This document shows, piece by piece, positions 1,274-18,386 of a DNA stretch of 64,000 nucleotides. The notes beneath the pieces were generated by a model, which was given only the letters and a program-made list of their open reading frames with translations, searched no databases and was not told where the DNA came from. The stretch lies in the IMG/VR virus record IMGVR_UViG_3300027763_000037, positions 1 to 64,000 of that record; one strand, 5' to 3'. Origin of the DNA: a virus. How positions within the stretch are numbered: position 1 is the stretch's first letter; each line of letters starts with the position of its first letter. The translations under genes and the position numbers were made by a program.

Positions 1274-1461
1274 TGAAACAAACAAACGACAAAGACTCTT
1301 TACATAAACAAAACAGGGCTGAAAGAAATACTCAAAGAATTAAAGCAAAACCTAAAATGTCAAAGCAAGAAAGAATAGAGCAACGTATTCGTGAAGATAT
1401 AATTAGAACATCTCTAAATGAAATGGTTAAAGAAATTAATAACAAAGAGGCTAAGCAATAA
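1273..1461 (+). CDS. Basic 62-aa hypothetical protein, GTG start
   Basis: A GTG at 1273 shares its G with the TAG stop of the phosphatase gene, the usual sign of translational coupling. The product is strongly charged (Lys, Arg, Gln, Glu) and predicted to be almost entirely helical, with a segment MSKQERIEQRIREDIIR. No family is recognised. Its 3' end overlaps the convergent sulfotransferase-like gene by 11 bases. Confidence 0.5.
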   Translation: MKQTNDKDSLHKQNRAERNTQRIKAKPKMSKQERIEQRIREDIIRTSLNEMVKEINNKEAKQ

Positions 1462-2071
1462 ATTTGTAATACTTACTGTATGTTTCTTGTATATCTTTGT
1501 GTGATTTAAGATACTTAACAATAGACTCGTAAGCGTCTGTTTTTGTGTGTGATTCAATTTGATTATGTATGTGAGAAGTCTTTATGTTTTCTTCTGCTAC
1601 CCCAGATTTTTTAAGAATATTTTTACAGAACAAGACAGGGTTATTTTCTAAATCAGAATATTTAACTTTAATAATTTTATTATTCAACTCAAGGCAATTA
1701 AGATAAGAATTGTATATCATTATTTGGTTATCTATAAAATTATTTTCACGAATACTTAGATTACTACCACTTTTAATCTGATCTTCATTTACTATAGACT
1801 TTCCTTCAATAACTCTTCCAACATGTCCAGAGAACCATCTATCAACATTATGAGAGATAGAGTCTATAGGATCTCTCAAAATGAAGTATGAATCTACATC
1901 TAAACCAAAGTCAGATAAAAGCATTATTGCTTCATGCTTCCATATTATCCATGAGTTGCCTTCTGGCATGTGATGATAATTCTCAGTTTGAGAATCTTTT
2001 ACCATACGAACACACATATCTGCTACAGACCATGCCCCAGAATTTGGGTAAGAATTAATTAATATTTTCAT
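1451..2071 (-). CDS. Sulfotransferase-like P-loop protein
   Basis: The 206-aa protein starts with a 5'-phosphosulfate-binding-type loop, SYPNSGAWSVAD (residues 7-18), and has a matching 3'-phosphate-binding motif, ILRDPIDSISH, near residue 65. These two blocks define PAPS-dependent sulfotransferases. A basic DNA-repair or kinase role is not supported. Two further genes of this type lie at 2108 and 4876, and a gene with an APS-kinase domain lies at 17619. The acceptor is unknown, with glycan or protein hydroxyls most likely. The start lies six bases from a TACAAT -10 box. Confidence 0.75.
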   Translation of the reverse strand: MKILINSYPNSGAWSVADMCVRMVKDSQTENYHHMPEGNSWIIWKHEAIMLLSDFGLDVDSYFILRDPIDSISHNVDRWFSGHVGRVIEGKSIVNEDQIKSGSNLSIRENNFIDNQIMIYNSYLNCLELNNKIIKVKYSDLENNPVLFCKNILKKSGVAEENIKTSHIHNQIESHTKTDAYESIVKYLKSHKDIQETYSKYYKFIA

Positions 2072-2101
2072 ATATACATTGTATCAGTAGTAGTGTATAC
2101 T
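2072..2101. promoter_or_regulatory. Divergent pair of leaderless promoters
   Basis: On the minus strand TACAAT (2083-2078) lies six bases before the ATG at 2071. On the plus strand TATACT (2096-2101) lies six bases before the ATG at 2108. The two sulfotransferase-like genes are thus expressed back to back from overlapping control DNA, each probably leaderless. Confidence 0.6.
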
Positions 2102-2107
2102 AATTAT

Positions 2108-2635
2108 ATGCCTGTCGATTCAATTTATTTTTCAAACTATACAAGGTCTGGCCTTGCTTTTATGCAATATTTAATAACTCTTTGCCCAAATCTTCCTATG
2201 GGTCATGCCAGTCACGGAATTCAAACACGTCGGAGAACAATGACTGTTATAAGAAACCCTATGGATGTATGTGCATCATCAATTATAAATAATTATGATA
2301 ATTGTCAGGATATTAATCAAACTATTAAAGAAGAAGAACGCAAATATATAAAATTTTACAAAGAATTATTAAAACAAGATGATCTTATTGTTATAGATTT
2401 TAATGATCTTGTAGGCAGGCCAGAAGAAACTATGAAGTCTATTCACAAACTTTTAGATTTGCCGTTTTTAATGTATGATCGTGATAAAGATATGACATTT
2501 AATGAAGATGGTCACCTTCATACATCTAAAACACATCCTGAATATGATAGAATTAAGGATGCAGTTTATCAGATTACTCATACAAAGTCTTTAGAAATAT
2601 ATAAACAAACATTAGAAAGAGGGTTAAGAGTATGA
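2108..2635 (+). CDS. Sulfotransferase-like P-loop protein
   Basis: The 175-aa product has SNYTRSGLAFMQ near its N terminus, equivalent to the PRSGTTWLQ loop that binds the 5'-phosphosulfate, and VIRNPMDVCASSI, equivalent to the 3'-phosphate motif of PAPS-dependent sulfotransferases. It is shorter than cellular enzymes (about 250-300 aa), as are its two neighbours. ATG 2108 is preferred to a GTG at 2093 because the GTG lies just upstream of the -10 box. The next gene starts in its stop codon (TATGA). Confidence 0.75.
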   Translation: MPVDSIYFSNYTRSGLAFMQYLITLCPNLPMGHASHGIQTRRRTMTVIRNPMDVCASSIINNYDNCQDINQTIKEEERKYIKFYKELLKQDDLIVIDFNDLVGRPEETMKSIHKLLDLPFLMYDRDKDMTFNEDGHLHTSKTHPEYDRIKDAVYQITHTKSLEIYKQTLERGLRV

Positions 2636-2727
2636 TAGTAGCACTAATAACATTTGCAGTAGGTTATATAGCCTGCTATTTTGTTATGACTTTTGGAATA
2701 AATAATGATAAGGAGAAAGATCAATGA
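2632..2727 (+). CDS. 31-aa single-pass membrane peptide
   Basis: MIVALITFAVGYIACYFVMT forms one hydrophobic helix followed by a charged tail, NNDKEKDQ. It overlaps the gene before by four bases and the CDGSH gene after by four bases. An AAGGAGA ribosome site for the next gene lies in its 3' end. A membrane role is clear; its function is not. Confidence 0.55.
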   Translation: MIVALITFAVGYIACYFVMTFGINNDKEKDQ

Positions 2728-2909
2728 GTCTATGTACATGTGGATACTCCACTGACTACCCAGATTGTAATGGAACACACAGAGCAGTAAGAAGGCTAAG
2801 AGAAGAGATTGCCCAGGCTATTGAGGCTATAGACATAGAGTCTTCAGTAACAAACGCCGTGGGCACAAAAATCTTAGCAGCAAAGATAGCAAGAAATCAA
2901 AATGATTAA
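2724..2909 (+). CDS. CDGSH-type iron-sulfur peptide
   Basis: The 61-aa protein has the spacing CxCxxSxxxPxCNGTH at residues 4-19. This matches the CDGSH signature (C-X-C-X2-[ST]-X3-P-X-C-D-G-[SAT]-H) at every position except Asn in place of Asp. In that family three Cys and one His bind a redox-active 2Fe-2S cluster. The rest is a charged helix that could dimerise or contact a partner. It is coupled to a membrane peptide upstream and an SGNH operon downstream. Redox sensing or electron supply are possible roles; neither is shown. Confidence 0.7.
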   Translation: MSLCTCGYSTDYPDCNGTHRAVRRLREEIAQAIEAIDIESSVTNAVGTKILAAKIARNQND

Positions 2910-2979
2910 TAGGATTATTTTTATAATAAAACAAAAGATTAAAAATAAAAAAATAAAAAAGGCAAAAAGAATATACTAA
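2902..2979 (+). CDS. 25-aa strongly basic peptide before SGNH gene
   Basis: MINRIIFIIKQKIKNKKIKK is followed by AKRIY, with 11 Lys/Arg in 25 residues. Its TAA overlaps the ATG of the SGNH hydrolase at 2979. A very similar peptide lies at 8976, directly after another SGNH hydrolase gene. It may be a leader peptide coupling translation, or a functional cationic helix. The recurrence next to the same enzyme family supports it being real. Confidence 0.45.
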   Translation: MINRIIFIIKQKIKNKKIKKAKRIY

Positions 2980-3881
2980 TGTCTTATGATGCTTTTAATG
3001 TAGAACTTAATCCATCAAAATTAATATATGGGCTTATGCAGCCACCCCATGACTATGTAAGTGATAAGTATAGTTATACTGTTAACAAAGATGGTTTTAG
3101 ATCTGTAGACTTTTTAACTAAGCCCCCGATAATTACCCTGGGATGCTCTATTACGTTCGGCACAGGGCTACCAGAAGGCTTTAATTGGCCATCACAGTTG
3201 CAGTCTTTGCTGGGCAAAGACAAGATGATTGGTAATCTTGGAGATCATGGATCATCAATAATGAAAAATATATCTCAGTTCTTTTCATTTGTAAAAAAAT
3301 ATAATTATCTTCCAGAATATCTTTTGTGTAACTTTCCAGACTTTCAAAGATTTTATTTTATTAATAAAAACTTAAATAATATGGAAAATCTTTTCTGGTT
3401 AAAAGAAAGCATAAAGACTAAGGGCACAGCGCCATTTGAATGGGATAAGATAGTTCCTTCTCAGTGGATTAATTGGTCTAACCTTGATCACATTAAAATG
3501 TTAGAGCAGTTTTGTTATTTTAATAACATAAAACTAATATGGACGACATGGTCTGATAATATTCCTGACGAACTTGAAGACTGTTTTGCTAAAGATTTTA
3601 TCTTTTATAAAAAAGATCCAACCAGAGAACTGTTTCCAAATGATTTTGAGTTTAACTTTGCAGTTGACAAGATAGATAATTTAAGAACTCATTACGCAAT
3701 TATAGATTCTAAATTAGATTGTCATAGTCAGGTTAGGGACAAAAATCAAGATGTATTTGATTTTGGATATGATCATGGAAATATTAATCCTCCATTTCAT
3801 CCACACCCTGGGTCGCATAGGCATGCACATTGGGCAGACTTTTTTTACAAAGAAATGGAGGGTATGACTAATGGCAATTAA
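2979..3881 (+). CDS. SGNH/GDSL-family hydrolase or acyl-esterase
   Basis: The 300-aa protein has the block I nucleophile motif LGCSITFGTGLP (Ser57), a block II region NLGDHGSSI, and a C-terminal HPHPGSHRHAHWAD segment that can supply the catalytic His. These are hallmarks of SGNH hydrolases, which add or remove acyl groups on sugars and proteins. It shares the upstream NKDGFRS segment with three other copies in this window (8045, 21208, 26640). No signal peptide is seen, so it acts in the cytoplasm or in the virion. It overlaps the glycosyltransferase gene after it by 11 bases. Confidence 0.8.
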   Translation: MSYDAFNVELNPSKLIYGLMQPPHDYVSDKYSYTVNKDGFRSVDFLTKPPIITLGCSITFGTGLPEGFNWPSQLQSLLGKDKMIGNLGDHGSSIMKNISQFFSFVKKYNYLPEYLLCNFPDFQRFYFINKNLNNMENLFWLKESIKTKGTAPFEWDKIVPSQWINWSNLDHIKMLEQFCYFNNIKLIWTTWSDNIPDELEDCFAKDFIFYKKDPTRELFPNDFEFNFAVDKIDNLRTHYAIIDSKLDCHSQVRDKNQDVFDFGYDHGNINPPFHPHPGSHRHAHWADFFYKEMEGMTNGN

Positions 3882-4614
3882 AGAAGAATATATTCCTGAT
3901 GGTATTGGGGCACAGTTATTTAGAAAGATTGTTGTAAAGTCTTATGCCGATGCCATTGGAGAAGAGTATTACAATGATCCTATTAAAGATTTTTTAATAC
4001 ATGAATCTGATAACATAAAAACAGAAGATGAAAAAAATAAAATTATAGAACAGTTTAACAATCTTATATCACACACAAATTCTAAAGATATGAATTATGA
4101 TATTAAAGAAATTAGTACAAATGAAATTAATTCTTCAATGCTTACTAACTTTAATTTTTTAAATATTGAAACAATTAAAGAAAATAGAATTGTCATACAT
4201 ATTAGAAGAGGAAATGTCATACCAACGAACCCTCGCTGGATAGATGAAGAAAGATATGTAGAACTTATAGAGAACATAGATAATATTTCAAAACTTTTTT
4301 CATTAGAAAACCCAGACATATTTATTTTGACAGATTCTCCAGTTAATACAAATAAGTTTAAGCCATATGAAAAACAAGATGATTACTGGAAACAAGAACA
4401 TCTTGTTGCTGATAGCAATGGAGAATATCCCTTAACATCAATTAATCCTGATAACTTTCCTAATGTTAAGATAATAAATAACATGGGTACGTATGAGTCA
4501 TTTCTTTTTATGCTTAACTCAGCAGTTATAGTTCCATCTTGGTCAGCATTTAGTAAAGCAGCATCATTGTTAACAAAGAATTCTTATGTTGACATCTTTG
4601 GCGTATTAGGATAG
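3871..4614 (+). CDS. Fucosyltransferase-like glycosyltransferase
   Basis: The 247-aa protein resembles the alpha-1,2/O-fucosyltransferase fold. It has an N-terminal DGIGAQLF segment like the GGLGNQ of GT11 enzymes, the donor-phosphate motif IVIHIRRGN (family HxRRGD), FILTDSP, and a C-terminal SWSAFSKAASLL like the family's NSSFSWW region. A GDP-sugar donor is therefore likely. The N-terminal segment is shorter than in cellular GT11 proteins. It directly follows and overlaps an SGNH hydrolase, pointing to a shared glycan substrate. Family assignment is by motifs only. Confidence 0.65.
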   Translation: MAIKEEYIPDGIGAQLFRKIVVKSYADAIGEEYYNDPIKDFLIHESDNIKTEDEKNKIIEQFNNLISHTNSKDMNYDIKEISTNEINSSMLTNFNFLNIETIKENRIVIHIRRGNVIPTNPRWIDEERYVELIENIDNISKLFSLENPDIFILTDSPVNTNKFKPYEKQDDYWKQEHLVADSNGEYPLTSINPDNFPNVKIINNMGTYESFLFMLNSAVIVPSWSAFSKAASLLTKNSYVDIFGVLG

Positions 4615-4627
4615 ACTTAGTCTATAA

Positions 4628-4702
4628 GCACCAGTAGCCAAGTTGGTTAAGGCACCGAACTCATAATTCGGCTATTCGTAGGTTCAAGTCCTACCTGGTG
4701 TA
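4628..4702 (+). tRNA. tRNA with CAT anticodon (Met or Ile2)
   Basis: A cloverleaf folds with acceptor GCACCAG/CTGGTGT (first pair G-U), D-stem GCC/GGC, anticodon stem CCGAA/TTCGG with loop CTCATAA, and T-arm GTAGG/CCTAC around TTCAAGT. The anticodon is CAT. It could be elongator Met or lysidine-modified Ile(AUA); the first pair is not the C-A mismatch of initiator tRNA. No CCA is encoded. Confidence 0.85.
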
Positions 4703-4706
4703 CAAA

Positions 4707-4780
4707 GCGAGTGTTGCATAATGGTAGTGCATCATCCTTCCAAGTTGATTGTGCCAGTTCGATTCTGGTCACTCGCTCCA
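4707..4780 (+). tRNA. tRNA-Gly(TCC)
   Basis: Acceptor GCGAGTG/CACTCGC, D-stem GCA/TGC, anticodon loop CTTCCAA (anticodon TCC), and T-arm CCAG/CTGG around TTCGATT. The 3' CCA is encoded. One T-T mismatch interrupts the anticodon stem. It reads GGA, a codon that is frequent in this AT-rich genome. Confidence 0.85.
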
Positions 4781-4781
4781 T

Positions 4782-4857
4782 ACCTCTGTAGTTCAGTGGA
4801 CAGAACGATGGACTTCTAAGCCATGCGTCGCAAGTTCGATTCTTGCCAGGGGTACCA
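4782..4857 (+). tRNA. tRNA-Arg(TCT)
   Basis: Acceptor ACCTCTG/CAGGGGT, D-stem GTTC/GAAC, anticodon loop CTTCTAA (anticodon TCT), T-arm GCAAG/CTTGC, and encoded CCA. It decodes AGA, the Arg codon that dominates the phage genes here and tends to be rare in many actinobacterial hosts. Confidence 0.88.
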
Positions 4858-4861
4858 GTGG

Positions 4862-4867
4862 TATAAT
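4862..4867 (+). promoter_or_regulatory. -10 box TATAAT
   Basis: TATAAT lies eight bases before the ATG at 4876, directly after the tRNA cluster. It predicts a leaderless or near-leaderless mRNA. No good -35 is visible, as the region upstream is tRNA. Confidence 0.5.
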
Positions 4868-4875
4868 TAAATTAT

Positions 4876-5424
4876 ATGAAACTTTTGCTTGCTACCTATC
4901 CAAGAACTGGACAACATTTATTGCGTGATCATATATCACAAAAATTAAATGTTGAACTTGACCATACTCATGACTGCAGAATTAACACCTATGACAAAAT
5001 GATAACAATTGCCAGAGATCCAAAAGAGGCTATAGCGTCTTGGATGGCAATGGAACTACATCATGAAGATATTGAACCAACAAGAAAACCTCAGCCATTA
5101 GAGTTTTATGCTAAATCTGCTTCTGTTGAACATATTATTTTTCATAAATATGCAATAAGAAGTGCTTCAGAAGTCTTTGATTACACTCTTTTGAATAGCC
5201 ACATGGACAGTATCATTGATAAAATAAGTAAAAAGTTTAACATAGAAAAAACAAATGCAGAGTATGTAAATAGAATATCAGATACAAAAGGTAAGAAACA
5301 TATAGTAAGCAGTCAAAAAACAAAACATTACGAAGAAATTAAAAATTTTTTAAACTCATATGATTTATCAGAAAATTATAAGTTATATCAAGAATTATAT
5401 TCAATGTGTGCTGACTTAGGTTAA
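4876..5424 (+). CDS. Sulfotransferase-like P-loop protein
   Basis: The third sulfotransferase-like gene, 182 aa. ATYPRTGQHLLRD (residues 6-18) matches the 5'-phosphosulfate loop and TIARDPKEAIASW the 3'-phosphate motif. The distance between the two motifs is short, as in the copies at 1451 and 2108. The C-terminal half is helical and Lys-rich, and contains a segment TKGKKHIVSSQK that could hold the PAPS-binding RKG equivalent. It is separated from the operon before it by the tRNAs and ends in a nine-base overlap with the convergent GlcNAc transferase. Confidence 0.75.
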   Translation: MKLLLATYPRTGQHLLRDHISQKLNVELDHTHDCRINTYDKMITIARDPKEAIASWMAMELHHEDIEPTRKPQPLEFYAKSASVEHIIFHKYAIRSASEVFDYTLLNSHMDSIIDKISKKFNIEKTNAEYVNRISDTKGKKHIVSSQKTKHYEEIKNFLNSYDLSENYKLYQELYSMCADLG

Positions 5425-6528
5425 CTCTTTCCAATTAAAATCATAATTGTTTTTGTCTAAAATTGGGTAAGATTCATTATTGTTAATTCTTTTTTCATAC
5501 CAATCCTTTGCTTTTTTAAATAGTTCTGCCATATCAAACTCATTAAAATACTCTTCTGCAGATCTTGTTGCATGAGGCATAGAGTATCTATTCTTTTCAT
5601 CTAAACAAAAAAACCTATCAGCATGCTGTCTTTCAATAGTATCGTTGCCACAAAACTTTCCTCTAAAATATTTTACTGGGTACTTGCTATTATAAACTGT
5701 TTGATTATAATCAAAGTTATCATGACCAAGGTAGTGCTCAACTATGTTTGCATAGACATCCCATCCTGACATATAAGTGTATAAACTATCTATCATTTCT
5801 TCAGAAACAAATTGAGATCGAGAATCAAAGAGTGTATCTTCTATATATTCTTTTCTTGCAAATATGAAATTGCCTCCAACAAAACCAGTTCTTATGTATC
5901 TGTCATCAATTAGTTTTGCATCAGACAAAGGGTATTCTTTTGCTACCTGATTCATATTATCAAGCAATTCCCATCTTCTGTCTTCATCTAAAAGTATTGA
6001 TTTCTTTTCTGTAAACCTTGCATTCCATGCAAAACTTACACCATCCCTGTCTATCAAAGCATCTCCAGGATATTGATTTGTTTGTTGTGATATTATGACT
6101 TTCCCAGACTTAGATGCTTTGCTTAGTATTCTCAAGTCATTTTTTAATTTTGTGTCCCATCCCTCACAGAAGTGTGTATGAGAGTCTATTTGTAAAAAGT
6201 ATTCTTGAAATGTCATTAACTTTCTTAATACGTGCCTTATTCTAACAGTTCCAGGACGATTTTCTGCTGCACAATAAATTTTTATTATTTTTTGTGGATC
6301 TATAAACGATACATCTGGTATTTCTATTTTTTCATACTGCAGAGCAATACCAAAATATATCTTATCTGGGTTATCTGCATTGTCGATGATAGATTTAATA
6401 GTTCTAATAAGATATTGGTCATCATAAGAGGCTACGGATATATATATTGTGTCAGGTATTACAGACAAAGATTCTAAGATAGGAACTTCTCTTGTGTCTA
6501 TAATGTATGGATCTTCTACATATTCCAT
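5416..6528 (-). CDS. Skp1-type GlcNAc transferase (PF11397-like)
   Basis: The 370-aa protein follows the pattern of the GlcNAc family that contains Skp1 hydroxyproline N-acetylglucosaminyltransferase: IYISVASYDDQYLIRTIKS near residue 29, a GIAL segment, a basic ENRPGTVRIRH donor segment, and YFLQIDSHTHFCEGWD near residue 110. The DSH-type metal motif and the following GWD are characteristic. Such enzymes transfer GlcNAc from UDP-GlcNAc to a hydroxyproline or other acceptor. Prolyl-hydroxylase-like genes in the same window make hydroxyproline a plausible acceptor. No signal or membrane segment is present, so it acts in the cytoplasm. Confidence 0.78.
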   Translation of the reverse strand: MEYVEDPYIIDTREVPILESLSVIPDTIYISVASYDDQYLIRTIKSIIDNADNPDKIYFGIALQYEKIEIPDVSFIDPQKIIKIYCAAENRPGTVRIRHVLRKLMTFQEYFLQIDSHTHFCEGWDTKLKNDLRILSKASKSGKVIISQQTNQYPGDALIDRDGVSFAWNARFTEKKSILLDEDRRWELLDNMNQVAKEYPLSDAKLIDDRYIRTGFVGGNFIFARKEYIEDTLFDSRSQFVSEEMIDSLYTYMSGWDVYANIVEHYLGHDNFDYNQTVYNSKYPVKYFRGKFCGNDTIERQHADRFFCLDEKNRYSMPHATRSAEEYFNEFDMAELFKKAKDWYEKRINNNESYPILDKNNYDFNWKELT

Positions 6529-6531
6529 AAT

Positions 6532-7296
6532 TTAGTTTTGTTTGCCTTTAGACACAACCGTAACGACTGCATGTTCATCAAAAAGATGCTCTACAAGATC
6601 TTCTTCAAGTTGTCTAATTACTTGACTATACTTTCCATGAACAATATTTTGGTTTTGCAATCCGCCGTTTATTACTAAGCAAACCTCTCTATCCTCATTA
6701 AAAATTTCTAACATTTCTTTTAATAGTTCTAATATATTATATCTATAGTGAAGCAAAACAAGAAGTTCTTTAATATCTTTTATTCTTTCCAGAGTTTCAA
6801 TTTCTTTTTGTGCTGCATCATTTTCAATAACGATTCCTTCTTCAATAGATGCACGAGTTGCATCATTTGCAAAAAATTCTTTTAGCATGTAGCCAGCCTC
6901 TCCAGACTCCATAGCAGAAAGAGCAATTGCTAATGGCGCTGCAGATGGGCCAGCAACAATAGAAACTTCATATCCTTCTGACCTGACTTTTCTTATAAGA
7001 GATGATCCTGGGTCTGCAATTCCTGGATAGCCCATATGCAATAACAGCATTGTATTCTTACCAGAATCAAGAATTTCTTTTGTTTTTGAGAATTGTTCCT
7101 CAAGTGTATAATCAAGAAAAACATCATAGTTTATTTTGTTTTGTATGTTTAGATTGGTCATATCTTTTAGCAATTGGTCTTCATGCTCTACCCATACAAA
7201 CTCTCCAGACTTTAGATAGTCCAGCACCTTTTGTGGTGTATCTGTTGGGTCTGTTAGATGATTGCAACCTATTATAAAAGTGCCGTTTTTATTCAT
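6532..7296 (-). CDS. RsmI-like tetrapyrrole-methylase-fold methyltransferase
   Basis: The 254-aa protein has the central signature of RsmI, the enzyme that 2'-O-methylates 16S rRNA C1402: LLLHMGYPGIADPGSSLIRK followed by VRSEGYEVSIVAGPSAAPLAIAL. This segment forms the SAM site of the tetrapyrrole-methylase fold. The N-terminal part, TFIIGCNHLTDPTD, is weaker than the usual GTPIGNL. The C-terminal half does not match RsmI clearly. Ribosome modification during infection is possible, as is a different small-molecule substrate. Its ATG is six bases from a TACAAT box. Confidence 0.7.
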   Translation of the reverse strand: MNKNGTFIIGCNHLTDPTDTPQKVLDYLKSGEFVWVEHEDQLLKDMTNLNIQNKINYDVFLDYTLEEQFSKTKEILDSGKNTMLLLHMGYPGIADPGSSLIRKVRSEGYEVSIVAGPSAAPLAIALSAMESGEAGYMLKEFFANDATRASIEEGIVIENDAAQKEIETLERIKDIKELLVLLHYRYNILELLKEMLEIFNEDREVCLVINGGLQNQNIVHGKYSQVIRQLEEDLVEHLFDEHAVVTVVSKGKQN

Positions 7297-7324
7297 AAGA
7301 TAATTGTAGCATATGGTGTATAAT
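7297..7324. promoter_or_regulatory. Divergent promoters between methyltransferase genes
   Basis: Minus strand: TACAAT (7308-7303), six bases before ATG 7296, predicting a leaderless transcript. Plus strand: TATAAT (7319-7324), with a short leader containing a GATAGGG ribosome site ahead of ATG 7348. Confidence 0.55.
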
Positions 7325-7347: not shown

Positions 7348-8043
7348 ATGGCAAGAGAAATAGTTCCATCATTCATTGATTCATTCCCAGAACTACCGCT
7401 TAATCAAATTGAAGATGGTCATAAATTAGATCAAGATCAACTAAACAATACAAAACTTTATGCTTCAAGAGAAGAATACACAAAGCATCTTCCAAAAAAT
7501 ATGAGGTATATGGAGATAGGTGTTGCTTGGGGATATTACTCTGAGTTAGTTGCAGAAAATGCCAGCCCGAAAAGTATAGACTTGTTAGATTTTTATGATC
7601 TTGATCTTAAGTGTTGGTCATGGAGAAAGTTTGGAGAGTGTAAATGCGAGCCTGTTAAGCATGAAATGAAGTATACTCCAGAAACCCATGAGCCTTACAT
7701 AAAGGAATTGTTTAGTAAGTATAATAATGTTTCAACATTAAAAGGAAATGCAGTCGACATTCTTCCAGGCATAAACAAGGAATATGATTATATCTATATA
7801 GACATTTCAAATAAAAGGGATCAAACAAGAAAAGTTCTGAACTTATCTGCTGGACTTGTTCCCATTGGAGGAATAATTGGAATGAACGATTACTTGATCT
7901 TTGATGGTATTATAGAAGAGGCTCCTTACGGAACCTATCAAACTGTAAATGAATTTTTACACAAAAATAAAAATTGGTCAGTTACTGCGTTAGCACTGCA
8001 CAATCTTGGGTTTTACGATATATATATAAAAAGGGAGCAATAG
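7348..8043 (+). CDS. Class I SAM-dependent methyltransferase
   Basis: The 231-aa protein has motif I as YMEIGVAWGYYSE near residue 54, an acidic motif II in SIDLLDFYDLD, and motif IV in YDYIYIDISNKRDQTRK. The layout matches methyltransferases of the MTase_24/FkbM group that often methylate sugars in glycan clusters. A Cys pair (ECKCEP) lies after motif II. It is followed after one base by an SGNH hydrolase, consistent with joint action on a glycan. The acceptor is unknown. Confidence 0.7.
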   Translation: MAREIVPSFIDSFPELPLNQIEDGHKLDQDQLNNTKLYASREEYTKHLPKNMRYMEIGVAWGYYSELVAENASPKSIDLLDFYDLDLKCWSWRKFGECKCEPVKHEMKYTPETHEPYIKELFSKYNNVSTLKGNAVDILPGINKEYDYIYIDISNKRDQTRKVLNLSAGLVPIGGIIGMNDYLIFDGIIEEAPYGTYQTVNEFLHKNKNWSVTALALHNLGFYDIYIKREQ

Positions 8044-8044: not shown

Positions 8045-8983
8045 ATGGCTGGAAAATATGACATAAAGTTAAATGATGATGCAAATATTTCTGATGTATT
8101 CTTTAATGAGTTCGATCTGACATGGATGCATGGTATGCCAAAAGACAAAAGAACGTTTACAAAACTTCCAATTGAAAATATTTTCAGGGGTGGAGATGAT
8201 GGATCCGTTATATACAACTACAATCAAGACGGATTTAGATCTGACGAGTTTTCTAATCAGCATGGCAAATATCATATTTTGTTTAGTGGCTGCTCACAGA
8301 CTGAGGGTGTCGGTGGATCTATAGAAACAGTATGGACAAACATTCTTCACAAAGAACTTAAAGATCGTGGACTTGATGTTGGTGGTTTTTATACTTTAGC
8401 AAGGTCTGGCTATGGATGGCAAAAAATTATTTCACAATTTATGCTATACACAAAAAAATACGGAATGCCAACACATTTCTTTGTACTTATGCCAAACATA
8501 GGAAGGTTCTACCTATGGTCTGAAGAAAGAAATAATTGGGTATATGTGCAAAGATACCCAGTAAATACTGACTATGATGCAATCAATGATTGGCGTAAAA
8601 AGCATGAATCTGAAGAAGTTCCTGAGCCTTCGAGGTTTGAAGAGCAAAAGTTGTCAGTTAAAGAACATAGAGAAAAGTTTTTAGATTTTGTTATAGGATG
8701 GAAACTTTTTTCAGAATACTGCAAAGCCAATAACGTTAAATTAGTTTGGTCTTCTTGGGACTATGCAGAATCAGATAACTATTCATTGATTAAAAGCAAT
8801 GAGTTCTTTCCGTTAAATGAAAGTAATGAGATCGAATCTTTCATATCAAAGAAAAGACCAGACCTAAAACTTGAAAAATATGACTTAATAAGAAGAGATG
8901 GGCACGATGGAGTTCTTTGGAATGAGTATTGGGCTGAAAAGTTTTTAGAAAAAATAGATGAAAGGGAGTTATTCAATGATTAA
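8045..8983 (+). CDS. SGNH/GDSL-family hydrolase
   Basis: The 312-aa protein has the nucleophile motif FSGCSQTEGVGG (Ser84), preceded by YNQDGFRSDEFSN, the segment shared by all four copies in this window. A later GYGWQKI region resembles block II and NIGRF block III. DGHDGVLWNEYWAEKF near the C terminus can hold the Asp/His pair. A carbohydrate or protein esterase/acyltransferase role is likely. It overlaps the 26-aa basic peptide gene downstream. Confidence 0.78.
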   Translation: MAGKYDIKLNDDANISDVFFNEFDLTWMHGMPKDKRTFTKLPIENIFRGGDDGSVIYNYNQDGFRSDEFSNQHGKYHILFSGCSQTEGVGGSIETVWTNILHKELKDRGLDVGGFYTLARSGYGWQKIISQFMLYTKKYGMPTHFFVLMPNIGRFYLWSEERNNWVYVQRYPVNTDYDAINDWRKKHESEEVPEPSRFEEQKLSVKEHREKFLDFVIGWKLFSEYCKANNVKLVWSSWDYAESDNYSLIKSNEFFPLNESNEIESFISKKRPDLKLEKYDLIRRDGHDGVLWNEYWAEKFLEKIDERELFND

Positions 8984-10837: not shown

Positions 10838-11557
10838 ATGGATCAAGGAAAATTAGCAGACAAAGAAAATAGTGTAACGTCAAGCAGAAAAGGCAATAAG
10901 TTTAAGTATGAAAGCCCTTTTCCAGGAATGCATATCTATAATGATGTGTGGCCCGACTCAATGGATTTCTTTAGGAAAGTTGAAGAAGATACATTTTGGG
11001 AAAATAATGATAGAAATAAAGTTAAATGGCAAAGAGAGGACTATCTTGATGCTGAGGTAGGCAAAAAAGCCTACACATGTTGGGTATGGCATGATGAAGA
11101 TGTTCAAAAAAATCTTGAAGAAGTTATAGATTCTTATCTTTGGCATTGGGACCTTGATCCACATAGTCGTGAGTCTTTGAGAATCACAAAGTATTCTCCA
11201 ACTGGAGAGTTTTTTGGTATGCATCCTGATGACTCTTTTGCTACACCAAGAACTACTGCTTTAGTGTATTACCCAAACGATGACTATGAAGGTGGAGAAC
11301 TTGAATTTTTACATTTTGGTGTTAAGATAAAGCCAAAGGCTGGGCAGTTATTTTTATTTCCTGCTGCCTATAGTTATGAGCATAAAATTCATCCTGTTAC
11401 TGGTGGAAATCATAGATATACTCTCGTTACCTTTTTTAATCAAGGAACAGAGAAAGAAAGACAAACAAGAAGCAACATGATAAGTAAAAATAAATTTTAT
11501 ACTGCAAACCTTAAATATGTTCTTTCTCCAGAATTTGGAACTGTTGAAGAAAACTAA
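10838..11557 (+). CDS. 2OG-Fe(II) oxygenase, prolyl-4-hydroxylase-like
   Basis: The 239-aa protein has a complete double-stranded beta-helix core. GMHPDDS (near residue 129) gives the first Fe ligands HxD, YYPNDDYEGGELEF is the family's EGGEL strand, YEHKIHPV gives the distal His, and GNHRYTLVTFF supplies the Arg that binds 2-oxoglutarate. This is the prolyl-4-hydroxylase-type layout. It should hydroxylate a protein or peptide side chain using O2 and 2-oxoglutarate. It sits alone between a structured RNA and a terminator, with its own promoter. Confidence 0.88.
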   Translation: MDQGKLADKENSVTSSRKGNKFKYESPFPGMHIYNDVWPDSMDFFRKVEEDTFWENNDRNKVKWQREDYLDAEVGKKAYTCWVWHDEDVQKNLEEVIDSYLWHWDLDPHSRESLRITKYSPTGEFFGMHPDDSFATPRTTALVYYPNDDYEGGELEFLHFGVKIKPKAGQLFLFPAAYSYEHKIHPVTGGNHRYTLVTFFNQGTEKERQTRSNMISKNKFYTANLKYVLSPEFGTVEEN

Positions 11558-12830: not shown

Positions 12831-13447
12831 TATTCTTTAACTCCAAAATTTCCCCACTTAGAATATCTTATCACACGATACTCTTCAATATCTGGTAATA
12901 TTGTTAAATGATCCCATGAATGTTTTGGAAGAGCCTTTGCTTTATCAATTGCCTCTTCTTTTGTTTTTGCTGCTACATCTACAGAGTACTCATCAATACA
13001 TTGTGCAGTTACAGTAAATATTTTTTCTCCTTCAGATAAAATAATATTTTTTTTAGAGAAACCAAATAAATACTCTTTTGTAAGCCCTTTATGATTACTT
13101 AAAATTCTATGATTTCTGTCATTTGGAAATATAATAAAATCCCCTGGAAAAATATCAACTGGCCCATTGGAAAAATCTACCATGGCTTTTGAGCCATCTG
13201 GACCATAATACACAACACACTTAACATTACTATCTGGATTATCAGATGCTGTTTGTGCCAACGTTAGGCTATTAGGATTTGCATATTTTGCATTTGCCGA
13301 TCCAAATATAATTCCACTATGAACTAAGAACAGCATGTCTAAATCTTCAGGATTTATCTTATCTAAATCATAGCCATGTTGGCTTGGCAATACGCCAACG
13401 CAATGTATAACTGCTCCACTGTTTAGTTTGTCGTTAGTCCAGCCCAT
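12830..13447 (-). CDS. Hypothetical protein with cupin-like segment
   Basis: The start at ATG 13447 (MGWTNDKLNS) has a GGGGAGAG ribosome site inside the end of the WhiB gene. In the middle, GPVDIFPGDFIIFPNDRNHR resembles the glycine-turn and His of a cupin barrel. The C-terminal part, FTVTAQCIDEYSVDVAAKTK and then EEAIDKAKAL, resembles a small beta-beta-alpha ligand-binding domain of the DpnD/PcfM type. Neither match is strong. Function unknown; the fused arrangement is worth a fold prediction. Confidence 0.5.
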   Translation of the reverse strand: MGWTNDKLNSGAVIHCVGVLPSQHGYDLDKINPEDLDMLFLVHSGIIFGSANAKYANPNSLTLAQTASDNPDSNVKCVVYYGPDGSKAMVDFSNGPVDIFPGDFIIFPNDRNHRILSNHKGLTKEYLFGFSKKNIILSEGEKIFTVTAQCIDEYSVDVAAKTKEEAIDKAKALPKHSWDHLTILPDIEEYRVIRYSKWGNFGVKE

Positions 13448-13704
13448 AACTCTCCCCAACTCTTTTTATCTTTATGGTTATTAAATTCACGTGATATCTT
13501 ACCTTCTTCAAGGAATACTCCACCCCAAAGACCGTACTCTTTACCACCAATTCCTGCAGCAAAACATTCTCTCCTAACAGGACAAGCAAAGCATATTTTG
13601 TCTACTGCAGGTCTAAGAACAACATCCTCTTCATATTTGTCAAAGAATATGTTTGTATCATAATCAAGACATGCAGCATCATCTTTCCAATAAAACTTTG
13701 GCAT
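13423..13704 (-). CDS. whiB: WhiB-family iron-sulfur transcription factor
   Basis: The 93-aa protein has the four WhiB cysteines: AACLDYD near residue 12 and CFACPVRREC at residues 38-47, plus the beta-turn YGLWGGVFLEEG that contacts sigma factor in this family. WhiB proteins bind a 4Fe-4S cluster, join RNA polymerase via sigma and control transcription in response to redox state. They are restricted to actinobacteria and their phages, which makes this a strong host indicator. The C-terminal segment is short with few basic residues, so direct DNA binding may be weak. Confidence 0.93.
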   Translation of the reverse strand: MPKFYWKDDAACLDYDTNIFFDKYEEDVVLRPAVDKICFACPVRRECFAAGIGGKEYGLWGGVFLEEGKISREFNNHKDKKSWGELWAGLTTN

Positions 13705-13707
13705 ATT

Positions 13708-13917
13708 TTACCTCACATACTTGTCAGGTATATCCCATCCATTTTCTGAAACGCTAAAGACTTTTTTAAGATTCCACTTATCATTCTGATAAGCGCCAAA
13801 CTTTGATGTTGCTCCTTTTTCTGAAGGATATAGTTCAACTACATTCCATCCATCCCATGACAAGACTTTGTTTTTATTTACAATGTCTTCCATTTTTTCT
13901 AATGATTTTATATTCAT
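13708..13917 (-). CDS. Hypothetical 69-aa protein
   Basis: A soluble, Lys- and Trp-rich protein with the segment VLSWDGWNVVELYPSEKG. Its start overlaps the stop of the protease gene by four bases, and it leads to WhiB after three bases. No family is recognised. Confidence 0.5.
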   Translation of the reverse strand: MNIKSLEKMEDIVNKNKVLSWDGWNVVELYPSEKGATSKFGAYQNDKWNLKKVFSVSENGWDIPDKYVR

Positions 13918-15047
13918 TTCTTACTCCATCCTTTAGGACATACAGGACTATAACCATATATAGTTCTCTGATACTTTCCTTTAGTACATACAATCTTAAC
14001 ACGTTTCTGTGTAGTTTGCAATACAGGTTTTACATTTACAACTTCTGGTACTACAATTAAATCTGGCTTTGCTGAAGGTGTTGGCGTTGGAGTTACCACA
14101 ATAACAGGTTTTTGCTCAAATAAAATTTTTTGAGATAAATACTTTTCTGCATCACTAAAAATATTTTGATGTCCAGCAATAGTAAAATATGTTGCACCAA
14201 CAACACTGAGTTCAAATGGATCTGTCCATCTTGGTGAAGAAGGGTCCACATTGCCTGCTACAGGCCCTTGTGCAGCCCCTGCAGCCCCTACGTAGACCCA
14301 CTCTGTGCCAATCTTTATCCATAGTGGAGACCCAGAGTCTCCGCCACCGTGAAAGACTCCTCTTAGTAGAACTGTTTGAACAAGTCCATAGGGATTATCT
14401 TTTGACCATTGCTCTACCTTTTTACCTGCACAACAAAAATTAGTTCTTGTTACCGCTTCTGATTTTGTTGGTTTACCGTCAAATCCTTTACCATTCTTGG
14501 CATTTTGCCAGTCTTGTTCACTCTTAATTCCATATGCAATTGAAAGTACAGGGGTTGATACACTTTTCATCAAAAGAATTTCTTCTTTGGTTGCAAATCT
14601 AAATGACTTATTACTAAGTTCTTTATCCAAAATCAATATTGCAACATCACTCATTCCAGCATTACAGTCAGTACCCTCACACATAGAATCTGTATACGAT
14701 TCTGGTACAAACTGAGCAATAACTTTGGCTTTGTTTGAAGTTCCACCAAATGGAATATCTACCCCTGGCGCTGATACATAGAGGTCTGAGTTTGAAGGAA
14801 GTTCTCCATAGAAATGTTTTTGCTTGGAGTAGACTCCACCATCAATTCTTAGTACACAATGACCAGAAGTAGCAACAATTCTTGGTGCAATCAGTGCGCC
14901 TGAGCAGTGTCGCTGATTATTCTGTCCAAGGATGATCCCGACTACTTTGTCATCTCCTAAAGCATCCTGACCATTCTGCATGGCATAAGCATTTGGCAAT
15001 ATAGTAAAAGAAAATGCAACGACTAATCCTAAAATAATTTTTTTCAT
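13914..15047 (-). CDS. Secreted trypsin-like serine protease with host-type C-terminal motif
   Basis: The 377-aa protein begins with a signal peptide (MKKIILGLVVAFSFTILPNAYA). The chymotrypsin-fold triad is visible: CSGALIAPRIVATSGHC (His near residue 57), MSDVAILILD (Asp), and GGGDSGSPLW (Ser). Even-numbered Cys suggest disulfides, so it works outside the cytoplasm. A PTPTPSAKP linker leads to a C-terminal block, KRVKIVCTKGK then YGYSPVCPKGWSKK. This Cys-pair Lys-rich motif recurs in surface proteins of freshwater actinobacteria as I recall it. Likely roles are cleaving host surface proteins, receptor removal or lysis timing. It is unusual for a tailed phage. Confidence 0.88.
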   Translation of the reverse strand: MKKIILGLVVAFSFTILPNAYAMQNGQDALGDDKVVGIILGQNNQRHCSGALIAPRIVATSGHCVLRIDGGVYSKQKHFYGELPSNSDLYVSAPGVDIPFGGTSNKAKVIAQFVPESYTDSMCEGTDCNAGMSDVAILILDKELSNKSFRFATKEEILLMKSVSTPVLSIAYGIKSEQDWQNAKNGKGFDGKPTKSEAVTRTNFCCAGKKVEQWSKDNPYGLVQTVLLRGVFHGGGDSGSPLWIKIGTEWVYVGAAGAAQGPVAGNVDPSSPRWTDPFELSVVGATYFTIAGHQNIFSDAEKYLSQKILFEQKPVIVVTPTPTPSAKPDLIVVPEVVNVKPVLQTTQKRVKIVCTKGKYQRTIYGYSPVCPKGWSKK

Positions 15048-15058
15048 ATCTACCTTAA

Positions 15059-15421
15059 TTAATAACTAAATAAATCAGACTCAATATTTTTGAGTTTTGC
15101 TGTTGTTAAAAGTTTTGGTGCTGGTTCAGATCCAGAAGAAAGGAAAGCGCAGTAGTCTACTTGCTCTATGTTTTCTTCTATCCAAGATGGTGCAACTTTA
15201 AAAAATTTAATCTTTCTTTTTCTTGCTTTCATTCCACGCTCTGATAGGTTAACAAACTCAGAAACCATATCGTTTACTTTTCCAGGCCCAGCAGAGTAGA
15301 TGTAAAACTCTCTATCTGTGTCTGGTAAATTTGACATAGCAACTGCCATTGAACGTAAGAATACCTGATAGTCATGAAACGTATTAGTTCCTTGGACCGC
15401 CACTATCATCTGTTTTCCCAT
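15059..15421 (-). CDS. Rossmann-type protein, possible SLOG family
   Basis: The 120-aa protein starts with MIVAVQGTNTFHDYQVFL, which resembles the GSRxF..Y motif of YspA/DUF2493-like SLOG proteins, and then has strands FYIYSAGPGKV and IKFFKV. SLOG domains bind nucleotides or nucleotide-derived ligands. The gene overlaps the end of the preceding one by 38 bases. The family match is by pattern and is weak in the second half. Confidence 0.5.
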   Translation of the reverse strand: MGKQMIVAVQGTNTFHDYQVFLRSMAVAMSNLPDTDREFYIYSAGPGKVNDMVSEFVNLSERGMKARKRKIKFFKVAPSWIEENIEQVDYCAFLSSGSEPAPKLLTTAKLKNIESDLFSY

Positions 15422-15803
15422 CTCTTAATTTGTCCATTATGAACAACATCTTATCTAATTGTACCTTATTCATACTCATGGTGTCAACTATCTTTGCTGA
15501 CTCACGATCTATGTTTGCCCCGTTTATATCAGCAACATAAAAAGCGCCATCTCTAATAAAATAAGCCTTGTTTTCTAATATGATTACTTTTATATTTGTT
15601 CTTTCTTCATGAATACTGGACTGAGTAGGCTTTCTTTTTTTAAAAATATCATGTGCTGGAAGAAGTGGTTTTACTATTGAATAGATATGTGATTGACTAT
15701 ATCTAAAAGGATTACTTCTCTTACCAACATGTCTATCTTTAACCATCTGAGTAGTTAAAAACATGAGAATAAATGTAGTAATTGATCCAATAAAATATTC
15801 CAT
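15384..15803 (-). CDS. Membrane-anchored hypothetical protein
   Basis: The 139-aa protein has one N-terminal membrane helix (FIGSITTFILMFLTTQMV), a basic stretch with KKRKPTQ, and a C-terminal soluble domain including NIKVIILENKAYFIRDGAFY. It sits between the SLOG-like gene and two tandem paralogues. No family is recognised. Confidence 0.5.
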   Translation of the reverse strand: MEYFIGSITTFILMFLTTQMVKDRHVGKRSNPFRYSQSHIYSIVKPLLPAHDIFKKRKPTQSSIHEERTNIKVIILENKAYFIRDGAFYVADINGANIDRESAKIVDTMSMNKVQLDKMLFIMDKLRDGKTDDSGGPRN

Positions 15804-15815
15804 TATTCTCCCAAA

Positions 15816-16157
15816 TTATTCTTTATCTAAGGCAAAGATTCTTATTAATTCTTTTAATGTGTACTGTCTATCTTTACTTAACTTTGCAATAGCATTTTGA
15901 TCTAAGGCTTTTTGAGTTAGTCTTATAATAGGATTTTTTTCTGTAACATCCATCTCCAAAAAACCTTCTTCCCAAAGAGCCATAGTCTCTTGTGAAAAAT
16001 ATGTAGAAATTTCTGTGTGTAGTTCTGGACTAACATCAATAAGTTTCTCTGTAAAATTATACAGAGGCTCTCCAGTTTCCATATCTATACCAGCAACCTC
16101 TAAGGCTCCATTGAGAATTAGTTGCTCAATAGCATCATCTTCATCTTTAAAGTTCAC
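15816..16157 (-). CDS. Hypothetical protein, tandem paralogue A
   Basis: The 113-aa protein shares its N-terminal 50 residues' pattern with the next gene upstream (16154): a helix ending EQLILNGALEVAGIDMETGE versus EHLLLQGAVEFQGIDEQTGE, then LYNFTEKLIDVSP versus LYTITDKLKEVSP. A duplication is therefore clear. The C terminus has an extra helical extension. The function is unknown. It is ATGA-coupled to its paralogue. Confidence 0.6.
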   Translation of the reverse strand: MNFKDEDDAIEQLILNGALEVAGIDMETGEPLYNFTEKLIDVSPELHTEISTYFSQETMALWEEGFLEMDVTEKNPIIRLTQKALDQNAIAKLSKDRQYTLKELIRIFALDKE

Positions 16158-16378
16158 GCTCTAAGTCTCCAAGTCATTCGTGTTGGCCCTTGATCTATAA
16201 GTTTAAACATATGATGTTCATACTGATCTTTTAATTGTTCATATACACCAGGACTTACCTCTTTTAACTTATCGGTTATTGTGTACAACATTTCTCCAGT
16301 TTGCTCATCTATGCCCTGAAACTCTACGGCACCTTGAAGAAGCAAATGCTCAAGCATTGCATCTGTTTGTAAACTCAT
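16154..16378 (-). CDS. Hypothetical protein, tandem paralogue B
   Basis: The 74-aa shorter copy of the tandem pair. It has the shared GIDEQTGEMLYTITDKLKEV core and ends WRLRA. In phage genomes small proteins of this layout often precede structural or scaffolding-type genes, but no role can be assigned. Its ATG touches the stop of the nuclease gene. Confidence 0.6.
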   Translation of the reverse strand: MSLQTDAMLEHLLLQGAVEFQGIDEQTGEMLYTITDKLKEVSPGVYEQLKDQYEHHMFKLIDQGPTRMTWRLRA

Positions 16379-16785
16379 TATTTTCCTGACTTGGCTCTTG
16401 CCTTAGCAAGTGCCTTAAAGTCCTTAACCTTGGTATCTCCAAGGTATCCCCATGCATAACCATCATTAATCATCATATCGTTAAGAGATACTGTGTTTCC
16501 ATCTACATATACCCAGCCTAAAATACGACCATACTTTTCAGATGAGTCCATCTTCTCAGTCTTAATTACAACAGACTTAGCATCCTTTAGAGACTTCTTT
16601 AGGTACTCTTTGGCTTCAAGTCCAAGAGCCTTCTCCGCAAGATCCTTTGTGCGTGACTCAGGGGTATCAATACCAGCCAGTCTTACACGGGATGCAAATA
16701 ATATATCAAACCCTAAATCAATAAGAACATCAATGGTATCTCCATCTACGACATTCTCTACTTTTCTTACATAGTATTCATACAT
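16378..16785 (-). CDS. Thermonuclease (SNase-like)
   Basis: The 135-aa protein matches the staphylococcal nuclease domain: VVDGDTIDVLIDLG (metal-binding Asp), SRVRLAGIDTPESR (catalytic Arg and Glu-containing turn), and EKYGRILGWVYVDG (second catalytic Arg). It lacks a signal peptide, so it acts in the cytoplasm or after lysis; it would cleave DNA or RNA with calcium. An CTAGGAGA ribosome site precedes the ATG. Host DNA degradation is a likely role. Confidence 0.92.
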   Translation of the reverse strand: MYEYYVRKVENVVDGDTIDVLIDLGFDILFASRVRLAGIDTPESRTKDLAEKALGLEAKEYLKKSLKDAKSVVIKTEKMDSSEKYGRILGWVYVDGNTVSLNDMMINDGYAWGYLGDTKVKDFKALAKARAKSGK

Positions 16786-16794
16786 AGCATTCTC

Positions 16795-17370
16795 CTAGTT
16801 TATATATTTGTTTGGCATAATATCAAATAATAGATGAATTCTATCTGTTGTACCATTATTTGTTACGCCGTGGAATCTTCCATTGTTAATCTCCCAGCAA
16901 TCTCCAGCCTTCATGTGCTTTTCTTCTTTATCAATTAAGAATATAGCATCTTCATTTGTTTGAATTGCTATGTGGTGTCTATGGACAAGCCCTAAATAGT
17001 CACCTTCATCATGGTGCTGATAAACAATTTTATTTCCAGGCAATCTTAAAAATGCTGCCTTTCCCATTTTCCCATCATGTTTTTTTTCATAGTGACCAAT
17101 TATTGGCTCTATCATTTTCCAAAGTTCTTGATCTTTAAGCCTAAATGTTGGTTCAAATGGTTGTCCTAGTTGCCATCCCATAATCTCCGAAACAAAAAGA
17201 GTTGTTGTCTCTCTATGAACAAAGGGAGGCATCTGTTGTCTTGTTCTGTCAATCCACCATTCTTCTTCTGGATAAGATAAAAGTTTATTTAAAATATCAT
17301 CTACATTATGATTTTCATAATATATATATCTCCAGTCTGCTTTTCTTTTTTGGTCAATGATTGATAACAT
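16795..17370 (-). CDS. Aspartyl/asparaginyl beta-hydroxylase-like 2OG oxygenase
   Basis: ATG 17370 overlaps the upstream stop (TAATG) and is preferred to an ATG at 17385. The core has YQHHDEGDYLGLVHRHHIAI (first Fe-binding His), LIDKEEKHMKAGDCWEIN, then FHGVTNNGTTDRIHLLFDI, which gives the distal His and the Arg that binds 2-oxoglutarate. This is the aspartyl/asparaginyl beta-hydroxylase layout. It is about 190 aa and soluble. It should hydroxylate Asp/Asn-like side chains or a related substrate. One of seven 2OG oxygenases in the window. Confidence 0.82.
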   Translation of the reverse strand: MLSIIDQKRKADWRYIYYENHNVDDILNKLLSYPEEEWWIDRTRQQMPPFVHRETTTLFVSEIMGWQLGQPFEPTFRLKDQELWKMIEPIIGHYEKKHDGKMGKAAFLRLPGNKIVYQHHDEGDYLGLVHRHHIAIQTNEDAIFLIDKEEKHMKAGDCWEINNGRFHGVTNNGTTDRIHLLFDIMPNKYIN

Positions 17371-17573
17371 TATTTTCTTCCCCATTTAACTTTATTCCAA
17401 CCACGCTCATGGAAGTAATAAAGAACTGTTTTTGTAAATACCTCAAAACTTGCTATTGCCCCTGCTGTAACTGGCTCTTTAGTTATTGCCCAAGATATTA
17501 CAAAGGTATCTGCTGTGCCAATGACACGCCAAGTAATTGCTTTTAGGGCTGATCTTTGTTTGGTTACATTCAT
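17370..17573 (-). CDS. DUF2061 membrane protein A
   Basis: The 67-aa protein starting MNVTKQRSALKAITWRVIGT continues with ADTFVISWAITKE and ends FTKTVLYYFHERGWNKVKW. This closely follows the DUF2061 consensus (KAxTWRxxGTxDT ... TKTxLYYxHERxW). Two membrane helices are predicted. A second member lies at 18929. In some bacteria the domain is found next to or fused with sulfate-activation genes. Here it is directly beside the APS kinase fusion, which fits that link. Confidence 0.8.
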   Translation of the reverse strand: MNVTKQRSALKAITWRVIGTADTFVISWAITKEPVTAGAIASFEVFTKTVLYYFHERGWNKVKWGRK

Positions 17574-17618
17574 GATGGCCACTCAATTTTGCTTGGCTTA
17601 GTGATGAAGTTCCAGACT

Positions 17619-18386
17619 TTAGATACCCAGTTCTTTACGTTTTTGCGTAGCCGATATAGCATGAATGTCTGCCCCCAAATCTACTTGTTCAATTTTATAT
17701 CCTACATCACGACCATACACAATGTTGGTAATGTTAGGAACCTTTATTACATTTGCCGTTGGCATGTCTTTCTGAATAAAATTTTTGACTTCGTGGAAAT
17801 GCAAAGGATCTTTTTCACTCATTCCAACTGTGTGGCGAACACCAATTACAACCTGAGTATTACGCTTTGCTGCTTCATCAAAAAGAGCACGATGCCCCTC
17901 ATGCCAAGGTTGGTAACGACCAAGAAGCAATACGGTATTTTCTTTCCAATCAAACATTCCAAATTTTCTAACAACAGTTATTGCTCTTGTTGCAACTGCA
18001 TCTGTGTGCTCATCGCCAGTGACAACAATGCGATGATCATAATGTTCTGGATCTTCCCATAGTTTATTTGTGTCATCAAAACGACCTTCTTTAATTGTAT
18101 CAACCCATACGACTACATCTGCTTCTCCAAATGCTTTGCGTGTTTCTTCAGTTGGACATATAAAATCTACAAGGACTGGCTTGTCCTGAATCTCCTCAAG
18201 TAGTCTTGCAAGTTCTCCCATTCGTCGTGCCTGCTCTACACGATCTTCTGGAGTAAACCCCAGGTCCTTATTGAGACCAGAACGAACCTGATCAGCATTT
18301 AAATGTATGGCATTAGTTCTGTCTCTAACCGCATCGGCAATTGTTGTTTTACCAGAACCTGGAAGACCCATAAATTGTATAATCAT
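17619..18386 (-). CDS. APS kinase-nucleotidyltransferase fusion
   Basis: The 255-aa protein has two domains. Residues 1-130 form an adenylylsulfate kinase: IIQFMGLPGSGKTTIADAV (Walker A), LNADQVRSGLNKDLGFTPED, and PVLVDFICPTEETRK. Residues 145-255 form an HxGH nucleotidyltransferase: LLLGRYQPWHEGHRALFDEA, VVIGVRHTVG, and HAISATQKRKEL, closer to NadM-type than to classical ATP sulfurylase, though YGRDVG is reminiscent of the GRD of sulfurylase. The kinase domain would make PAPS from APS. The second domain may make APS or activate a different compound. It could feed the three sulfotransferase-like proteins. Confidence 0.82.
   Translation of the reverse strand: MIIQFMGLPGSGKTTIADAVRDRTNAIHLNADQVRSGLNKDLGFTPEDRVEQARRMGELARLLEEIQDKPVLVDFICPTEETRKAFGEADVVVWVDTIKEGRFDDTNKLWEDPEHYDHRIVVTGDEHTDAVATRAITVVRKFGMFDWKENTVLLLGRYQPWHEGHRALFDEAAKRNTQVVIGVRHTVGMSEKDPLHFHEVKNFIQKDMPTANVIKVPNITNIVYGRDVGYKIEQVDLGADIHAISATQKRKELGI

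Follow-up and report, generated by a model that had tools for sequence, protein, structure and literature searches.

The subject of this analysis is a fused kinase–nucleotidyltransferase gene, and the small sulfotransferase-like genes that accompany it, in the virus record IMGVR_UViG_3300027763_000037 of IMG/VR, which has 111,921 bases and of which the first 64 kb (the window, with a G+C content of 36%) were analysed. A sequence-only reading of this DNA had proposed that the phage encodes an adenosine 5'-phosphosulfate (APS) kinase joined to a nucleotidyltransferase (NTase) with an HxGH motif, together with three sulfotransferases that use 3'-phosphoadenosine 5'-phosphosulfate (PAPS), and the four open reading frames (ORFs) that it named, referred to below by their first coordinates as 1451, 2108, 4876 and 17619, are all present. 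The features on which the argument depends are the following.

17967..18386, minus strand: APS-kinase half of the fusion, residues 1-140 (PF01583, Foldseek, alignment with canonical APS kinases)
17619..17966, minus strand: HxGH nucleotidyltransferase half, residues 141-255, candidate ATP sulfurylase
2108..2635, plus strand: predicted small sulfotransferase, 175 aa (PF13469 and leave-out profiles; alternative GTG start at 2093)
4876..5424, plus strand: predicted small sulfotransferase, 182 aa (TYPRTGQ; THD histidine; IARDPKEAIASW; PF00685 and leave-out profiles)
1451..2071, minus strand: sulfotransferase-like protein, 206 aa, with degenerate motifs, doubtful
13423-13704: WhiB gene (PF02467, 44.2 bits)

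The N-terminal half of the fusion is clearly assignable, by its sequence and its predicted structure, to the APS-kinase family. It reaches 61.2 bits with PF01583 (cut-off 21.1) and carries the motifs GLPGSGKT (the P-loop), LNADQVR, NKDLGFTPEDR and DFICP, followed by a shortened lid of the pattern K-R-F-WE-P, which in the alignment with canonical APS kinases still holds the K, R, F, (W/Y)E and P. With an AlphaFold2 model of the fusion (pLDDT 76), the first 50 Foldseek matches were all APS kinases. The HxGH half is equally clear, and the earlier description of 17619 as an APS kinase plus an HxGH nucleotidyltransferase holds.

The C-terminal half contains, in this order, the motifs GRYQPWHEGH, YGRDVGY and ISAT, and belongs to a NadM-like family. 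It shares the GRxQPxHxGH nucleotide-binding site and the NPF motif with the NadM-type nicotinamide mononucleotide (NMN) adenylyltransferases, its best match among solved structures, but the acceptor-side region is replaced by PNxxxxxYGRxVGY, no NAD genes surround the fusion in the window, and the score on the NMN adenylyltransferase equivalog TIGR01527 is 19.5 bits, far under the cut-off of 181.2. HxGH and YGRxVGY were found in all 106 family members examined, with x being D in 94 of them, and ISxT..R in 105. At the place that corresponds to YGRxVGY, Sat-type sulfurylases have THF(I/L)VGRDHAG, and a profile alignment registers PxHxxH, TNIVYGRDVG/THFIVGRDHAG and ISAT/SGT in order, at an hhalign local probability of only 8-12%. 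HxGH and the final motif are superfamily-wide, and the GRD loop is absent from the NMN adenylyltransferase of phage DLP_6, whose sequence was compared; the correspondence of this loop with Sat is suggestive of a sulfurylase, not proof. The HxGH motif is essential in human PAPS synthetase, PAPSS (PMC11697783). Like the PAPS synthetases (human PAPSS1/2; bacterial Sat-CysC), the fusion has an APS kinase and an HxGH nucleotidyltransferase in one protein, with the kinase N-terminal as in PAPSS, and it would match their architecture if the NTase were a sulfurylase. It differs from them in its length (255 aa vs ~620), in the shortened lid, and in an NTase of ~115 aa that is NadM-like and has neither a PF01747 match nor QxRN.

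The assignment of 2108 and 4876 as PAPS-type sulfotransferases is a solid prediction. The former passed the Pfam cut-off for Sulfotransfer_3 (PF13469; 29.1 bits vs 27), the latter scored exactly at the cut-off for Sulfotransfer_1 (PF00685; 22.0 bits), and for a profile built with 2108, 4876 and 1451 sulfotransferases were the sole meaningful matches among solved structures. In a leave-out test, the sulfotransferases of the window and their close kin were removed from the profiles and the 114 ORFs of the phage were then searched; 4876 was recovered with E-values of 1e-16 to 6e-29 and 2108 with 3e-15 to 4e-22. When 1,589 ORFs were scanned strictly for both motifs, 15 (10 distinct sequences) were returned, every one of them sulfotransferase-like and 2108 and 4876 among them. 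In the alignment R47 and P49 are invariant and Y8, R10, H32 and S55 nearly so, and both proteins carry the 5'-phosphosulfate-binding (5'-PSB) loop, the 3'-phosphate-binding (3'-PB) motif R(D/N)P...S and a candidate catalytic His; 4876 has four close phage relatives. The claim that all three genes have both PAPS-binding motifs was borne out for these two; the motifs of 1451 are recognisable but degenerate, and the strict scan did not pick it up. Its status as a sulfotransferase is doubtful, because it has no match in the Pfam search, because its E-values in the leave-out profiles were 0.003 to 0.013 (0.78 when 1451 alone was removed), and because its motifs are degenerate: YPNSG, LRDP and the KHE histidine are retained, but the 5'-PSB loop has Asn in place of its basic residue, and the 3'-PB serine is shifted by one position. 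The protein is conserved in three other phage loci, and an AlphaFold2 model of 1451 and its three relatives (pLDDT 37) is unusable as fold evidence. With the PF00685/PF13469 sulfotransferases of the cyanophages S-SKS1 and S-SRM01, the window proteins have in common the 5'-PSB and 3'-PB loops and the candidate catalytic His; they differ from typical members in being divergent, in their size (175-206 aa vs 250-300) and in occurring several per genome. Sulfotransferases of phage origin, which the sequence-only reading had called rarely described, have in fact already been annotated in S-SKS1, S-SRM01 and S-SCSM1, and their function has been stated to be unclear (PMC10580990).

The linkage between the NTase, APS kinases and sulfotransferases recurs in other phages. 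In a set of phage contigs fetched with the protein from OCS116 (see below), 75 of the 78 loci with the NTase were kinase-NTase fusions; a sulfotransferase lay at most 2 kb from the NTase in 40 of the 78 and within ~4 kb in 51, with representatives confirmed by Pfam. A third set, mostly of jumbo-phage contigs, comprised 45 loci with 10-kb neighbourhoods. Here a stand-alone NTase of ~150 aa abuts or joins an APS-kinase ORF in 43 loci, the two exceptions being at contig edges; in 16 loci the partner is a canonical APS kinase of full length, and a sulfotransferase lies inside the same 10 kb in 23 of the 45. One jumbo phage (L148), for example, gave Pfam scores of 219.8 bits for the APS kinase and 49.1 bits for a sulfotransferase, together with the NTase. 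In some phages the sulfotransferase and the kinase-NTase lie, as judged by eye, among tail-protein genes.

Relatives of the fusion are also found in bacterial genome contigs, several of them phage-like. In two OCS116 genomes (L124, L128) a 310-aa ORF combines the NTase domain with a canonical APS kinase of full length (PF01583, 218 and 222 bits), and a gammaproteobacterial contig with a truncated end (L125) also has the NTase joined to a canonical APS kinase; in all three the domain order is reversed, with the NTase first, which for OCS116 is the order of the bacterial Sat-CysC fusions. SAR86 and Pelagibacteraceae have kinase and NTase as separate ORFs that overlap or are adjacent. That the NTase is partnered now by a canonical and now by a short APS kinase, in like company, supports the view that the short kinase is an APS kinase and that the NTase takes part in sulfate activation. 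Among 22 bacterial genomes with the NTase, none had a PF01747 (Sat) match and five had CysD, which leaves 17 without a known ATP sulfurylase, among them those of OCS116 and six of SAR86; SAR11 has been described as lacking cysDNC and sat (PMC5069961). PF13469 sulfotransferases were found in 21 of 28 bacterial genomes with the NTase, and by Pfam sulfotransferases adjoin the fusion in seven contigs (L116, with a weak match, L119, L120, L121, L122, L134 and L139). In a proximity test that counted only PF13469 matches from whole-genome Pfam searches, four such genes lay within ~2.5 kb of the fusion, compared with 0.21 expected (P 7e-5).

PAPS requires APS, and APS requires an ATP sulfurylase. In the phage record we found no match to PF01747, the Sat-type ATP sulfurylase, and detected no CysD. 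The window contains a WhiB gene as well as a DUF7455 gene, and phage WhiB genes are a pointer to actinobacterial hosts. As WhiB genes are known from phages of 'Ca. Nanopelagicales' (acI), an order of freshwater bacteria (PMC10202952), the host is likely a freshwater acI actinobacterium. Strains of acI lack assimilatory sulfate reduction (PMC5301498), and in such a host a lone APS kinase would be useless; the fused NTase is therefore the natural sulfurylase candidate, a possible role that the sequence-only reading overlooked. The core of that reading, a phage that provides the sulfotransferases as well as their PAPS, is supported, and the linkage in unrelated phages and bacteria strengthens it, but an APS kinase alone would not suffice where the host forms no APS.

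We consider it probable, from the sequences and their gene neighbourhoods, that the phage encodes a sulfation pathway of its own. In the proposed scheme, the NTase half of 17619-18386 would act as an ATP sulfurylase from a new family that resembles NadM and would convert ATP and sulfate into APS and pyrophosphate, and the kinase half would phosphorylate APS to PAPS. The small sulfotransferases (2108, 4876 and perhaps 1451) would then use PAPS to sulfate an acceptor, which may be made by the products of the neighbouring glycosyl-, fucosyl- and methyltransferase genes and would most likely decorate virion proteins or glycans. As such a miniature PAPS synthase, the fusion would allow sulfation in a host that has no sulfate activation, and acI actinobacteria would fit. 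More generally, we are inclined to think that, alongside Sat and CysND, the NadM-like YGRxVGY family constitutes a third and hitherto unrecognised class of ATP sulfurylase, one that serves sulfation and not sulfur assimilation, and that phages and streamlined bacteria without sulfate assimilation pair it with an APS kinase; in the open-licence literature that we searched, no sulfurylase of this kind has been described before. Viral cysC/cysH auxiliary metabolic genes, which likewise include a phage-borne APS kinase, are usually read as sulfate assimilation, whereas the partner genes in the window are sulfotransferases, which points to sulfation. If this is true, a family of sulfate-activating enzymes has been overlooked, masked by NMN-adenylyltransferase or 'kinase' annotations, and the source of PAPS would be explained for SAR86, OCS116 and perhaps relatives of Pelagibacter that have sulfotransferases and no known ATP sulfurylase. 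Many environmental phages would then carry complete sulfation cassettes, making sulfated virions or host surfaces testable, and a sulfurylase of 115-150 aa would be a compact tool for PAPS regeneration.

Several observations weigh against this pathway. The nearest solved relatives of the NTase, with strong similarity, are the NadM-type enzymes, its profile similarity to ATP sulfurylases is weak, and the sulfate-binding QxRN of Sat is absent. On the apsK equivalog TIGR00455 the kinase half scores 58.6 bits, under the curated cut-off of 138.7; its lid is shortened to KEGRFDDTNKLWEDP, compared with the canonical KGLYKKARxGxIKxFTGIDxPYExP, and Asn replaces the first Asp of DGDN, a motif in which mutation of both Asp residues abolishes the activity of human PAPSS1 (PMC11697783). 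The host assignment is indirect, the bacterial genomes are in part incomplete single-amplified or metagenome-assembled genomes (SAGs or MAGs), and many phage contigs are near-duplicates that were not dereplicated, so that the counts overstate the number of independent events. A sulfotransferase was detected, with any profile, in 14 of 32 examined phage relatives, and in three nearly full-length ones (G007, G025, G031), out of nine with records of at least 99 kb, none was detected. Sulfotransferases are easily missed by profiles, as they are short and divergent, as 1451 shows; the kinase-NTase, present in more than 600 IMG/VR contigs, is nevertheless far commoner than sulfotransferases among the phage relatives, and it is therefore not strictly tied to them within the group of the window phage. 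In three named phages that have the fusion, DLP_6, Bhz60 and Clavibacter phage 33, no sulfotransferase could be detected. A NADAR gene overlaps with the kinase-NTase in the Casjensviridae loci (L102, L103), which are those of Bhz60 and Clavibacter phage 33. In these phages and DLP_6, PAPS may serve other uses, or the enzyme may have another role. The Casjensviridae kinase-NTase also lies near a gene annotated as cysteine dioxygenase.

The NadM-type relatives and the adjoining NADAR gene would suit a NadR-like salvage of NAD, in which the kinase phosphorylates nicotinamide riboside, the NTase turns NMN into NAD, and the sulfotransferases are unrelated passengers. We regard this as unlikely, since the kinase half is of the APS-kinase type and not a nicotinamide riboside kinase, the acceptor-side region with YGRDVGY is unlike the DLP_6 NMN adenylyltransferase sequence, separate genes for NadV and NadM-Nudix are already present in DLP_6, and neither NADAR nor NadV was found in the window phage or 31 relatives; the fusions and operons with canonical APS kinases and sulfotransferases would also be left unexplained. 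No more probable, in our judgement, is the synthesis of an activated precursor X for glycan decoration, with the kinase forming X-P and the NTase a nucleoside diphosphate derivative (NDP-X), and with the link to sulfotransferases reflecting shared glycan clusters. Some bacterial copies do lie, by eye, near sugar-nucleotide and chain-length genes (Wzz, NeuB-like and GDP-mannose genes), but this explanation fits poorly with NTases that are fused to or abut canonical APS kinases, whose substrate is APS, and the sulfotransferases recur specifically, tail-gene settings included. Least probable of the three is that the host supplies APS, that the phage kinase merely boosts PAPS formation, and that the NTase has an unrelated role. 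The APS-kinase-like half and the CysD of five bacteria with the fusion would agree with a host supply, but the 17 genomes without a known ATP sulfurylase and the acI strains without the pathway (PMC5301498) do not, nor does the retention of NTase and APS kinase together as separate ORFs in jumbo phages.

Other genes near the sulfotransferases and elsewhere in the phage record are the following.

824..1273, plus strand: HAD phosphatase of the PNKP 3'-phosphatase type (PF25109, 71.6 bits), beside the sulfotransferases
3871..4614, plus strand: fucosyltransferase-like (NodZ), weak (PF05830, 21.1 bits, under the cut-off of 28.3)
4628-4857, plus strand: three tandem tRNA genes (Met, Gly, Arg), inside the glycan/sulfotransferase cluster
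5416..6528, minus strand: glycosyltransferase of the N-acetylglucosamine (GlcNAc) type (PF11397, 89.4 bits), adjoining sulfotransferase 4876
7348..8043, plus strand: methyltransferase-like, weak (PF13578, 20.9 bits, under the cut-off)
10838-11557, 16795-17385 and 22186-22857, and also L105 15033-15563: 2-oxoglutarate (2OG)-Fe(II) oxygenase or Asp/Asn hydroxylase-like genes
19781-21238, minus strand: full-length carbamoyltransferase (PF02543, PF16861)
2979-3881, 8045-8983, 21208-22182 and 26640-27509: four divergent SGNH-like proteins (GCSxTxGxG...HPG motif, by eye)

Virion proteins or glycans are our leading guess for the target of sulfation, tentatively held, with the host surface or small molecules next; the sulfation of virion glycans or host surface molecules in the sequence-only reading was likewise a guess. 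Several oxygenase- or hydroxylase-like genes in one phage suggest extensive hydroxylation of proteins or glycans. The by-product of sulfotransfer, 3'-phosphoadenosine 5'-phosphate (PAP), is inhibitory, and the HAD phosphatase at 824-1273 might, speculatively, be a PAP phosphatase that removes it. Fusions of an APS kinase with a HAD phosphatase occur in jumbo phages (L331 4025-4990, L310 4040-4999).

Beyond the window, the same record encodes proteins with long repeat runs of the FTPF/FSPF type (x-F-T-P-F-x-V-F; L106 9886-11616 and L105 19189-19995) and a collagen-like GXY protein (L106 13737-14462). A contig labelled as a Chitinophagaceae MAG (L109) is a close relative of the window phage and shares the order of the DUF7455-like, kinase-NTase and nuclease genes, so that this genome bin is probably contaminated by phage. 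Three of the four SGNH-like proteins were searched and had no Pfam match, and proteins that resemble them are present in other phage loci as well, for example in L203.

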